A DNA stretch of 6,195 bases from a bacterium. Lineage in GTDB: Bacteria; CSSED10-310; JAJRTK01. The notes under the pieces were generated by a model. The model saw only the letters and a program-made list of their open reading frames with translations. It was not told the origin of the DNA and did no database searches. This document shows positions 187 through 6,178 of the stretch, piece by piece. The stretch spans positions 1 through 6,195 of the forward strand of contig JAJRTK010000424.1 in the NCBI GenBank assembly GCA_024278345.1. Direction: 5' to 3'. How positions within the stretch are numbered: the stretch's first letter is position 1; each line of letters starts with the position of its first letter. Made by a program: the position numbers and the translations under genes.

Positions 187-995
187 CTGAGTAGAACCTT
201 GCTCATCGTTTCGGTCTTTGGCACGAGATCTGTCTCCAAGGGGTTCCGGCCCCCCCCATTTGCCGGCGCCGACGACCATGGTTTCCAAGATTTTCCATCT
301 CTGCTGGCCGGTACCCACTCGGGAAGACTTTCCAGCGATGGCGCCGCGGCTCCCGCGGAAGAGCAGGTCTCCGTGGCCTGGCTTCGAGGACGAGGAGTGA
401 TTGCTCCAGCATTTGAAGAGCCTCGACCGTCGTCATTGGTGATCGGCGGAGCCGACTCACCTCCGGTCGGCATGCCACCCGCCAGCCGCGACGTACAAAG
501 GGGGTCTGGGCTCGCGCTCCCTGGAGAGGGTCTTGATGCCATCCAAAGCGATGACCGGTCCCACCTGCCGAAGCGGCCGCCGGTGATCGGTCCCATGGGT
601 TTCAGCCCGTCCGGGGACTTCGTTGATGGCGCCCCGCCGAGAAAACGCCGGGAGCGGAAGGCAAGTTCAAGAAAAGAGGAGCGGTCTTGTTTTTTTGGTC
701 CTTGAGGTATGATACAGGCAAAGGTCTGAGGGAGTTTTGGATGTAAGGTCGAAACTCCGGGGTATCCATAGACTCGGAACTCTCATCACGAATCGTCACG
801 AGGCGGTCCGAGGCGCGTTTTCACCAAGGAGGAGGAAGGCCCCACCGGAGGCGTAGTCTTGCGCTACGTCGAGGAGCTGGCCGACGAGGACGCCGGTGGA
901 AACGATGGATCGGCTGCCGCGGTAGAGACGTGATGAGAGTTCCGGGTTGGAGCCTGAAAAAAATTGAACTTCTGCCCTGAACGCAGCCTTCGATG
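187..995. other. Gene-free stretch with scattered repeat fragments
   Basis: I can defend no gene here. The open frames that cross it run into repeat sequence at their ends, lack convincing ribosome binding sites and resemble no family I know. Visible items are a run of eight C (250-257), a CCGCGG-CTC-CCGCGG hairpin (344-358), and a 27-bp stretch at 432-458 that matches 2317-2343 at 25 positions and includes a TCGGC-GGA-GCCGA hairpin. A fragment of the terminal repeat motif (GGGGTATCCA, minus orientation) sits near 759-771. A possible -10 box TATGAT (708-713) has a poor upstream partner TTGTTT (687-692) at only 15 bp. The stretch could be decayed coding DNA, but I cannot identify a parent gene. 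Confidence 0.5.
432..458 (+). repeat. 27-bp dispersed repeat, copy 1 of 2
   Basis: It matches 2317-2343 at 25 of 27 positions by hand alignment. Both copies end in a hairpin with a GGA loop and GC-rich stem (CGGC-GGA-GCCG), followed by ACTC. It is part of the same modular repeat background as the hairpin arrays. Confidence 0.65.
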
Positions 996-1149
996 GGGAC
1001 CTATCAGATCCGGTTGACAAGTCCACGCACGAAAGGAACCCACCGTTCAATTCCGTGAATCCCGTCCAGCCCGCCACCGGCAAGATGCCGATGCCACCAG
1101 GGCGGCGCCGCGGAGTGTAAAGCAAAAACGCGGGGATTTGATAGGTCCC
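996..1149 (-). mobile_element. 154-bp MITE-like element, copy 1
   Basis: This is a miniature inverted-repeat transposable element, inverted relative to the copy at 4569-4722. The left terminal repeat is GGGACCTATCAGATCC and the right one is its complement with one mismatch (15/16). The two copies have equal length with four mismatches and no gaps in my hand alignment. The flanks are CTTCGATG (988-995) and CTTCGGTG (1150-1157), an 8-bp target duplication with one later substitution. Inside are a GCCGGTG-type hairpin, where one C-G pair has become a wobble pair, and a perfect TTGACA hexamer at 1014-1019 with no good -10 partner. No transposase is encoded, so it must have been moved in trans. 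An 8-bp duplication occurs in several IS families; I cannot assign one. Confidence 0.88.
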
Positions 1150-1232
1150 CTTCGGTGGTCAGTGCGTCGGGGGAACCCTAAACGGGAAGTAAACTTTTTT
1201 CAGCCTTGAAGGCGAGACAAAACAAAAGAAAA
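1150..1232. other. Short gene-free spacer between MITE and degraded repeat
   Basis: This holds the right target duplication of the MITE (1150-1157), a run of six T at about 1195-1200 and an A-rich purine tract. I see no gene and no clear terminator stem. Confidence 0.4.
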
Positions 1233-4545: not shown

Positions 4546-4568
4546 GTTTCTAGCTGTTGAAAGTGGGC

Positions 4569-4722
4569 GGGACCTATCAGATCCCCGCGTTTTTGCTTTA
4601 CACTCCGCGGCACCGCCCTGGTGGCACCGGCATCTTGCCGGTGGCGGGCTGGACGGGATTCACGGAATTGAACGGTGGGTTCCTTTCGTGCGTGGAGTTG
4701 TCAACCGGATCTGATAGGTCCC
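4569..4722 (+). mobile_element. 154-bp MITE-like element, copy 2
   Basis: This is the better preserved copy. Its terminal inverted repeats (GGGACCTATCAGATCC at 4569-4584 and its exact complement at 4707-4722) are perfect over 16 bp. It is flanked by an exact 8-bp target duplication, AAGTGGGC, at 4561-4568 and 4723-4730. Relative to 996-1149 it is inverted, with four mismatches and no gaps by hand alignment. An internal hairpin CACCGGC-ATCTT-GCCGGTG lies at 4625-4643. It encodes no transposase. It sits in the divergent region between the GT-C operon and the alpha/beta hydrolase, 33 bases before the possible small minus-strand frame, so it may have displaced or supplied promoter sequence. Joining the flanks at one AAGTGGGC restores a plausible empty site. 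Confidence 0.93.
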
Positions 4723-4735
4723 AAGTGGGCCTTGT

Positions 4736-4907
4736 GGTCATCGGTGGTGCCTTCGGCAGATCTTGAAATGCTGGCATTCTTTGGTTCCCATTCCTAAGGT
4801 CCCCTCCACTACATCTACCAGGGACGCCCCCCTGATTTCACCTCAATTTCTTGGGAAAGTGGCGGAGTCCGGCGTGGCGAGAGCTGCCGAAGGCACCACC
4901 GATGACC
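4736..4907. repeat. 24-bp inverted-repeat pair upstream of the hydrolase
   Basis: GGTCATCGGTGGTGCCTTCG plus GCAG (4736-4759) is repeated as its exact complement at 4884-4907, 124 bp apart. Similarity continues outward (GGCCTT left, AAGGCC right) after a two-base gap. The left arm starts a few bases after the MITE target duplication. The first 13 bases (GGTCATCGGTGGT) also occur at 2316-2328. The pair could be a second small element or a long RNA stem before the hydrolase. I see no target duplication. No gene is visible inside. Confidence 0.7.
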
Positions 4908-4917
4908 AAGGCCAGCC

Positions 4918-4930: not shown

Positions 4931-5959
4931 TTGCACTGCCGCCAACAGCCCGTCGAAGAGGAGTTTTTCATTGTCACGGCCGATGGTTGGAGGTTGGCAA
5001 TCCTGGGTCGTCAGGCTATCGGTCCCCCTTGCGGAGTCGTTCTGGCCGGTCATGCCATGATGGCCAACCGGCGCAGCCTTGACCGGCCTCGTGGAAACGG
5101 ATTGATCACGACCTTCGTGGAAGCTGGTTTTCACACTTACGCCCTCGATGTTCGCGGCCATGGGGCCAGTGGACCCAAAGCCGAAGAGGGTGCCGACTGG
5201 AGCTATGACGACATCCTCTGGTTCGATCTCCCCGCGGCGATCACGTTTGTCCACGGACGCCATCCAGAGCTTCCCCTGGCCGTGGTGGGCCATTCCCTGG
5301 TGGGACATGTCATTTTGGGATTGTTGGGGCAATTCCCGGAATTGCCGGTAATCGCAACGGTCTCGCTTGCAGCCAATGTCTGGATTCGAAGGCTCGAACC
5401 GAGCCCCTTGAGGTGGCTGAAAAAACTGTTGGCCATCCGACTCATGAACCTGGCCCGGCTTCCTTTTGGACGGTTTCCCACAAGGTACTTAGGGCTTGGC
5501 AATGAAGATGAGGCGTCCAGTTTTGTCCGGCAGTTCCAGGTTCTCTTGGAGCAGGGCGATTGGTGCAGCCTTGACGGGGGCATCGACTACATGAGGAACG
5601 CGCATCGCGTTCGGCGATCCATCCTTGCCGTGGTGGGATCTGGCGACCGCCTTCTTTGCCATCCCACAAGCTCCGTCCTTTTTCATCGCCGGTTTCAAGG
5701 CTCAAGGATCTGGCACTGGACGGTTGGTGGCGGGGATTTTGGGCTTCCATGGGGTTACGAGCCGGATCACATGCAAGTCGTGACCGATCCGCGTTCACGG
5801 CCTGTATGGCATGCCATCGCCCACTGGCTTCACCAGCGTTTCCAGGAAGTGGGTCAAGAAGTAGAGCCCGGTTTCTTCGAGGCGGGAGACCGGCCTAGCT
5901 GGGGTATCGACGTAAGCCGGGACACCCGCCAAAACCAAGACGCACCGCGTCGTACATGA
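4931..5959 (+). CDS. Alpha/beta-hydrolase fold protein
   Basis: This serine hydrolase has 342 residues from the TTG start. An early strand (EEFFIVTADGWRLAILGRQ) leads to VVLAGHAMM (36-44) with the oxyanion-type HG region reversed to GH, then TYALDVRGHGASG (69-81), typical of the fold. The nucleophile elbow is VVGHSLVG, Ser122, with Val at 124 where Gly is usual. The acid is probably Asp239 (VGSGDRLLCHP) and the base His280 (EPDHMQVVTDPRSRP). A cap-like region lies at about 150-210. No signal peptide is seen. The substrate is unknown; an esterase, lipase-like or thioesterase role is possible. The in-frame ATG at 4763 would add 56 residues, but those cover an inverted-repeat arm and lack a ribosome site. 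The domain should end near residue 304. Residues 325-342 and the stop come from a repeat, so the tail looks acquired. Confidence 0.82.
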   Translation: MHCRQQPVEEEFFIVTADGWRLAILGRQAIGPPCGVVLAGHAMMANRRSLDRPRGNGLITTFVEAGFHTYALDVRGHGASGPKAEEGADWSYDDILWFDLPAAITFVHGRHPELPLAVVGHSLVGHVILGLLGQFPELPVIATVSLAANVWIRRLEPSPLRWLKKLLAIRLMNLARLPFGRFPTRYLGLGNEDEASSFVRQFQVLLEQGDWCSLDGGIDYMRNAHRVRRSILAVVGSGDRLLCHPTSSVLFHRRFQGSRIWHWTVGGGDFGLPWGYEPDHMQVVTDPRSRPVWHAIAHWLHQRFQEVGQEVEPGFFEAGDRPSWGIDVSRDTRQNQDAPRRT

Positions 5960-5975: not shown

Positions 5976-6178
5976 CGGGCCTCGGTCATGGTACCGGCCA
6001 CCCGAAAAAAGCGCGCAGCGCACAAAGAGGGGTCCAGGGAGCTGGCTCCCTGGCGTGGGTCTGGGAGCGGCGCTCCCAACGGAGGTCCGGAGGCGGAGCC
6101 TCCGCCGTGTTCCAGGGCTGGAAGCCCTGGGGCGGCGTCTGAAGTCTGCACCGTGGCCGGGACCATGACCGAGGCCCG
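5976..6178. repeat. 203-bp hairpin-rich block bounded by 26-bp inverted repeats
   Basis: The ends, 5976-6001 (CGGGCCTCGGTCATGG...) and 6153-6178, are complementary at 25 of 26 positions. Inside are perfect stems CCAGGGAG/CTCCCTGG (6034-6053), GGGAGC-GGC-GCTCCC (6063-6077), CGGAGGC-GGA-GCCTCCG (6088-6104) and CCAGGGCT-GGA-AGCCCTGG (6112-6130). The right half aligns with 2377-2480. I see no flanking duplication and no gene. It may be a hairpin-repeat element with mobile-element-like ends, or two inverted repeat units that abut. Confidence 0.7.

Follow-up and report, generated by a model that had tools for sequence, protein, structure and literature searches.

A high-copy 154-bp element with the features of a MITE family, almost confined to one bacterial draft genome

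Introduction

The contig JAJRTK010000424.1 (C363), which in its full length of 6,195 nucleotides is referred to as the window in the following, belongs to a 6.06-Mb draft genome (550 contigs; 87.9% complete) and carries one 154-bp element twice, in inverted orientation and at exactly the same length. This raises the question whether the element is a mobile unit and, if so, by which machinery it was multiplied. An initial annotation, made from the letters of the window alone, had described both copies as a miniature inverted-repeat transposable element (MITE) mobilized by a partner insertion sequence (IS) elsewhere in the genome. Here, this proposal was followed up in the complete assembly and in external genome collections.

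Results and Discussion

The features of both window copies are compiled in Table 1. Two copies of 154 bp in opposite orientation, separated by four mismatches, were reproduced exactly at both sites, and the mismatches were assigned to element columns 26, 96, 111, and 143. The previously reported terminal repeats of 16/16 and 15/16 belong to the 4569 and the 996 copy, respectively, and the reported 8-bp duplications were found at both sites, with one deviating position at the 996 copy.

Table 1. Positions of the 154-bp element copies and their parts in the window.
Feature	Position	Strand	Basis or remark
MITE copy 1, subfamily A, 154 bp	996..1149	+	inverted repeat; 97-99% identity to approximately 40 genomic copies; subfamily A consensus
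Copy 1, 8-bp target duplication, 5′, CTTCGATG	988..995		
Copy 1, terminal inverted repeat, left end, GGGACCTATCAGATCC	996..1011	+	
Copy 1, core palindrome, consensus CACCGGC-AAGAT-GCCGGTG	1076..1094	+	subfamily alignment; here one change, GCCGATG
Copy 1, terminal inverted repeat, right end, GGGACCTATCAAATCC	1134..1149	-	15/16
Copy 1, 8-bp target duplication, 3′, CTTCGGTG	1150..1157		7/8
MITE copy 2, subfamily A, 154 bp	4569..4722	-	4 mismatches vs copy 1
Copy 2, 8-bp target duplication, 5′, AAGTGGGC	4561..4568		
Copy 2, terminal inverted repeat, element's right end	4569..4584	+	16/16
Copy 2, terminal inverted repeat, element's left end	4707..4722	-	
Copy 2, 8-bp target duplication, 3′, AAGTGGGC	4723..4730		8/8

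The description as a two-copy element holds within the window, but not for the genome. Exact matches to the 14-mer end GGGACCTATCARAT were counted 261 times in the assembly, versus no occurrence of a reversed-pattern control, which is far more than chance would yield; since every copy contributes two ends, this corresponds to at least approximately 130 copies. These are dispersed, with ends on more than 100 contigs and different flanks at every site, whereby the 16-bp ends are the same genome-wide (end sequence of the family, GGGACCTATCARATC). A DNA search gave 270 first-look candidates; of the 40 that were scored, nearly all were 95-99% identical to the window copy, either along the entire element or as far as the edge of the contig. 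The length of complete copies is 154 bp in 67 out of 76 cases, with the others ranging from 151 to 170 bp.

Among complete copies, three types were distinguished: A (37, including the window pair), B (35), and a third type (4). Types A and B both measure 154 bp, whereas the length of third-type copies ranges from 154 to 170 bp, and two of them show a tandem expansion of 8 bp. Types A and B start with the same 25 bp (GGGACCTATCAGATCCGGTTGACAA), and they also agree in the core CACCGGCAAGATGCCGGTGCCACC and in the right end, which TGTAAAGC adjoins on the inner side. The intervening parts differ; two chimaeric copies (L042 and L057) combine a left part of A-type with a right part of B-type. All three types have conserved the core palindrome and two subterminal motifs, one inward of the left end (TTGACAA) and one inward of the right end (TGTAAAGC), whereas the remaining sequence diverges. 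Longer versions of 162 and 170 bp are also present and noncoding, as is a 312-bp version (L201:1213-1524) flanked by the 8-bp duplication GAAATTCG, whose extra interior occurs twice genome-wide, the other occurrence being located at the start of a contig (C243).

The core palindrome, common to all subfamilies, is tandemly expanded in some relatives. At four loci (L189, L164, L133, and L157) GGC-AAGAT-GCC was observed as tandem arrays or stem variants, the arms being CACCGGC, CAGCGGC, or ACAGGC with the loop kept. These arrays look like a REP-type unit that was captured and expanded within the 154-bp family.

Target duplications were scored in 72 assessable complete copies. They were perfect over 8 bp in 55 of these, and in 65 there was at most one mismatch, while the chance of such a match of at least 7/8 at a single site is approximately 4e-4. 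The result is similar for subfamily A (27 of 36 perfect; 33 of 36 with at least 7/8) and subfamily B (25 and 29 of 33, respectively), and all three assessable third-type copies possess a perfect duplication. No strong consensus was apparent among the duplicated 8-mers. Long spanning frames (≥250 aa) contain 41% of the insertion sites compared to 60% of random positions, i.e., the sites are weakly biased to intergenic DNA. Inspecting the genomic copies for other end positions or absent duplications, which had been named as a possible refutation, left the family standing.

The most direct evidence for movement comes from a nested copy (L002, contig C533), in which an A copy flanked by the duplication CCGCCCCA is located within a B copy, the latter being flanked by a separate duplication, GATCACCC. 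Removal of the inner element together with one duplication restores exactly 154 bp, of which 152 agree with the B consensus. The empty-site counterpart is represented more than 40 times in the genome, by B copies without an interruption. A nested insertion of this kind, with its own duplication and with empty B copies at hand, proves transposition without the need for a second strain. Four further insertions (L005, L025, L100, and L121) sit in another dispersed repeat for which uninterrupted paralogous copies serve as empty sites, and the reverse case, other repeat families inserted into copies of the 154-bp element, was found as well (L058, L197, and L198). The earlier claim of true transposition rather than recombination is therefore supported by genome-wide duplications and by a nested insertion with an empty-site counterpart.

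Taken together, the element combines a short and uniform length, terminal inverted repeats, a fixed 8-bp duplication, and many copies with empty sites with the lack of an internal transposase. It almost certainly represents a family of non-autonomous DNA transposons, i.e., MITEs, which would most likely be moved by a transposase acting in trans; the identification as a MITE was borne out genome-wide by ends, length, duplications, and copy number. The family is recently active and as such an ordinary representative of a well-known kind of mobile element, which appears to be undescribed so far.

It is very improbable that the host maintains the 154-bp unit chiefly as a structured RNA or regulatory cassette, with mobility being a relic only, even though its strict length and a predicted fold much better than that of shuffled sequences (z-scores of -5.5 and -5.2 for types A and B) would fit such a function. 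The good folding results from the inverted ends and the core palindrome, the fold largely reflects the pairing of the inverted ends, and strong folding is a common trait of MITEs. Moreover, an Rfam search yielded no match, and neither a promoter-like nor a terminator-like site was found in the element. Two further observations could be cited in favour of the cassette: in most A copies, a reading frame runs through the entire unit without interruption, and element plus duplication amount to 162 bp, a multiple of three. An in-frame, protein-inserting element was considered but set aside, as the subfamilies do not share the same open frame and frames spanning the element are short in most cases. 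The 154-bp element offers at most approximately 53 open codons and no domain, which agrees with the earlier statement that no transposase lies inside; including the copies genome-wide, there is no coding capacity for one. Insertions within other repeats and of copies within each other, as well as the near restriction to one genome, also argue against a host-kept cassette. A sensible reading of the element is rather that of a transposase substrate, with the ends and subterminal motifs as putative binding and cleavage sites, that would be moved in trans.

Many contigs break off within the element, the distance to its end often being 137-141 bp, a pattern typical for short-read assemblers stalling on near-identical copies, which implies further near-identical copies beyond the assembled ones and makes the element responsible for much of the fragmentation of this metagenome-assembled genome (MAG). 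An origin of the copies by recombination, segmental duplication, or assembly artefact, for which these contig ends could be cited, can practically be dismissed, since the flanks vary from site to site and are duplicated for 8 bp, the ends are spread over more than 100 contigs, and the collapse of reads cannot yield a nested copy together with empty sites.

As to the mobilizing machinery, a DDE transposase supplied in trans would most likely recognize the 16-bp ends together with the conserved subterminal motifs and transfer the element to new sites with little sequence preference, where a cut staggered by 8 bp would give rise to the target duplication; amplification by this route would have led to at least approximately 130 units with a fixed length of 154 bp and two main sequence types. 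The presumed DDE chemistry and supply in trans are modelled on known MITEs (reviewed in PMC10969869).

Transposase families in the genome itself were searched with PF01609, PF00872, PF01610, PF12762, and NF033572. Only incomplete transposases were recovered: the ISAs1-like hit is a C-terminal fragment at the edge of a contig, the ISL3 gene is broken, the IS1595 genes are partial, and the ISKra4-like type is represented by remnants. No match to PF00872 (Transposase_mut), indicative of IS256, was present in the assembly. None of the ISAs1-like, ISL3, IS1595, and ISKra4-like remnants has a GGGACCTATC end nearby, nor are they bordered by ends within 4-5 mismatches of GGGACCTATCAGATCC, and those ends that are readable by eye differ from the ones of the MITE (ISL3, GGCTCTTCGCCA; IS1595, GGCTCTATATGC). 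Derivation of the element from any of these four remnants is therefore not supported, given the lack of a shared terminal repeat, and the same applies to derivation from IS256, given the lack of a PF00872 match in the assembly.

Each exact left end that was examined could be traced to a copy of the MITE, to a contig that breaks off within such a copy, or to a site that is either diverged or due to chance. Neither these ends nor those listed in the assembly that do not have the MITE subterminal bases led to a larger element with coding capacity; an apparent pair of ends 180 bp apart (L028) was discarded because it shows no duplication and one end apparently lies in coding sequence. Likewise, no autonomous IS with these ends was found in seven genomes of the same phylum, in GTDB, or in viral, phage, and plasmid collections. 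Regarding the partner IS proposed in the initial annotation, its role as supplier of the transposase is still inferred, but no such IS was found in the assembly. Because the draft is fragmented at repeats and does not cover the whole genome, an IS present in several copies could have escaped assembly, and the absence of the partner is weak evidence. Judged by GG ends and 8-9-bp duplications, the transposase would most likely be of the ISL3, IS1595, ISKra4/ISMich2, or IS256-like type; its gene may since have disappeared, may not be contained in the draft assembly, or may reside on another replicon.

The window contains further repeats. At 5977-6177, a second MITE-like element of approximately 201 bp with inverted ends (GGGCCTCGGTCATGGTACCGGCCAC) was observed, whose approximately 203-bp relatives at other genomic sites are flanked by duplications of 8-9 bp; one member (L062) interrupts an ISL3-type transposase gene on contig C5 and is flanked by the duplication GTTCAAGC. 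A third repeat family is represented at 1306-1524, with inverted ends (GGGTATCCACGYAARGCGGGACA), lengths of 190-310 bp, and 8-9-bp duplications at several sites of the genome. Solo or partial ends of this family are located in the window near 163-185, 1696-1718, 2486-2508, and 5902-5924, and genome-wide the 154-bp MITE is found inserted in copies of this family and vice versa. An inverted repeat at 4735-4908 (TGGTCATCGGTGGTGCCTTCGGCAG and its complement) adjoins MITE copy 2; its ends resemble those of the ~203-bp family, and it is probably another small element. It is conceivable, though rather unlikely, that several unrelated MITE families starting with GG(G) (154-bp, ~203-bp, and 220-300-bp; 8-9-bp duplications) are perhaps served in this genome by a single transposase that acts across families and is of an as yet undescribed type, and that bursts go on although all transposases detected in the assembly are remnants or partial.

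Beyond this genome, a DNA search of 59 other genomes yielded no copy, and the exact end motif is absent from the seven same-phylum genomes. An 18-mer search in GTDB gave 12 matches, close to the number expected by chance, with only one true relative. This locus (L071:4931-5041, JAJRTE010000302.1) is a cut-off subfamily B copy interrupted by another repeat; its contig is labelled Myxococcota, comes from a hydrothermal-vent MAG (bin Dive96_bin1.27), and also carries the 220-300-bp (third) repeat family of the present genome. Dive96 is a sample name in a study of Southwest Indian Ridge vents (PMC9769843). The copy may reflect either transfer within a habitat common to both organisms or misbinning of the contig. 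End matches in viral, plasmid, and phage collections did not exceed chance level, and a literature search for the end sequence gave no match. The 154-bp family is accordingly almost confined to one genome.

With these results, a bacterial phylum that has been sampled sparsely gains a well-documented MITE family of high copy number. Its main interest lies in a recent burst with no intact partner transposase in sight and in the presence of several GG-ended MITE families in one genome.

Comparison with Known Systems

According to ISfinder conventions, ISL3, IS1595, ISKra4, and ISAs1 are characterized by GG-type ends, target duplications of around 8 bp, or both. In this respect they resemble the 154-bp family, whereas their remnants in this genome have no GGGACCTATC end in their vicinity. 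Among MITEs, the Correia element of Neisseria duplicates TA, in contrast to the 8 bp duplicated here. Compared by description, this original prokaryotic MITE of 204 bp, the number of which was revised to more than 120 copies (PMC10969869), is similar to the 154-bp family in copy number. QMITE1 and QMITE2 of Coxiella burnetii, with 45 and 78 copies in one strain, are also of high copy number, have no identified transposase, and grade into degraded copies (PMC5896051). Their direct repeats measure 2-4 bp for QMITE1 and a variable length of about 7-9 bp for QMITE2, and there is much size variation (PMC5896051), unlike the fixed length and the mostly intact 8-bp duplications of the 154-bp family. 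The Chunjie MITE of Geobacter uraniireducens, present in dozens of mostly intergenic copies, is by description likewise short and recently active, with conserved inverted ends and direct repeats (PMC10969869); its length varies from 178 to 235 bp, whereas that of the family described here is almost fixed at 154 bp.
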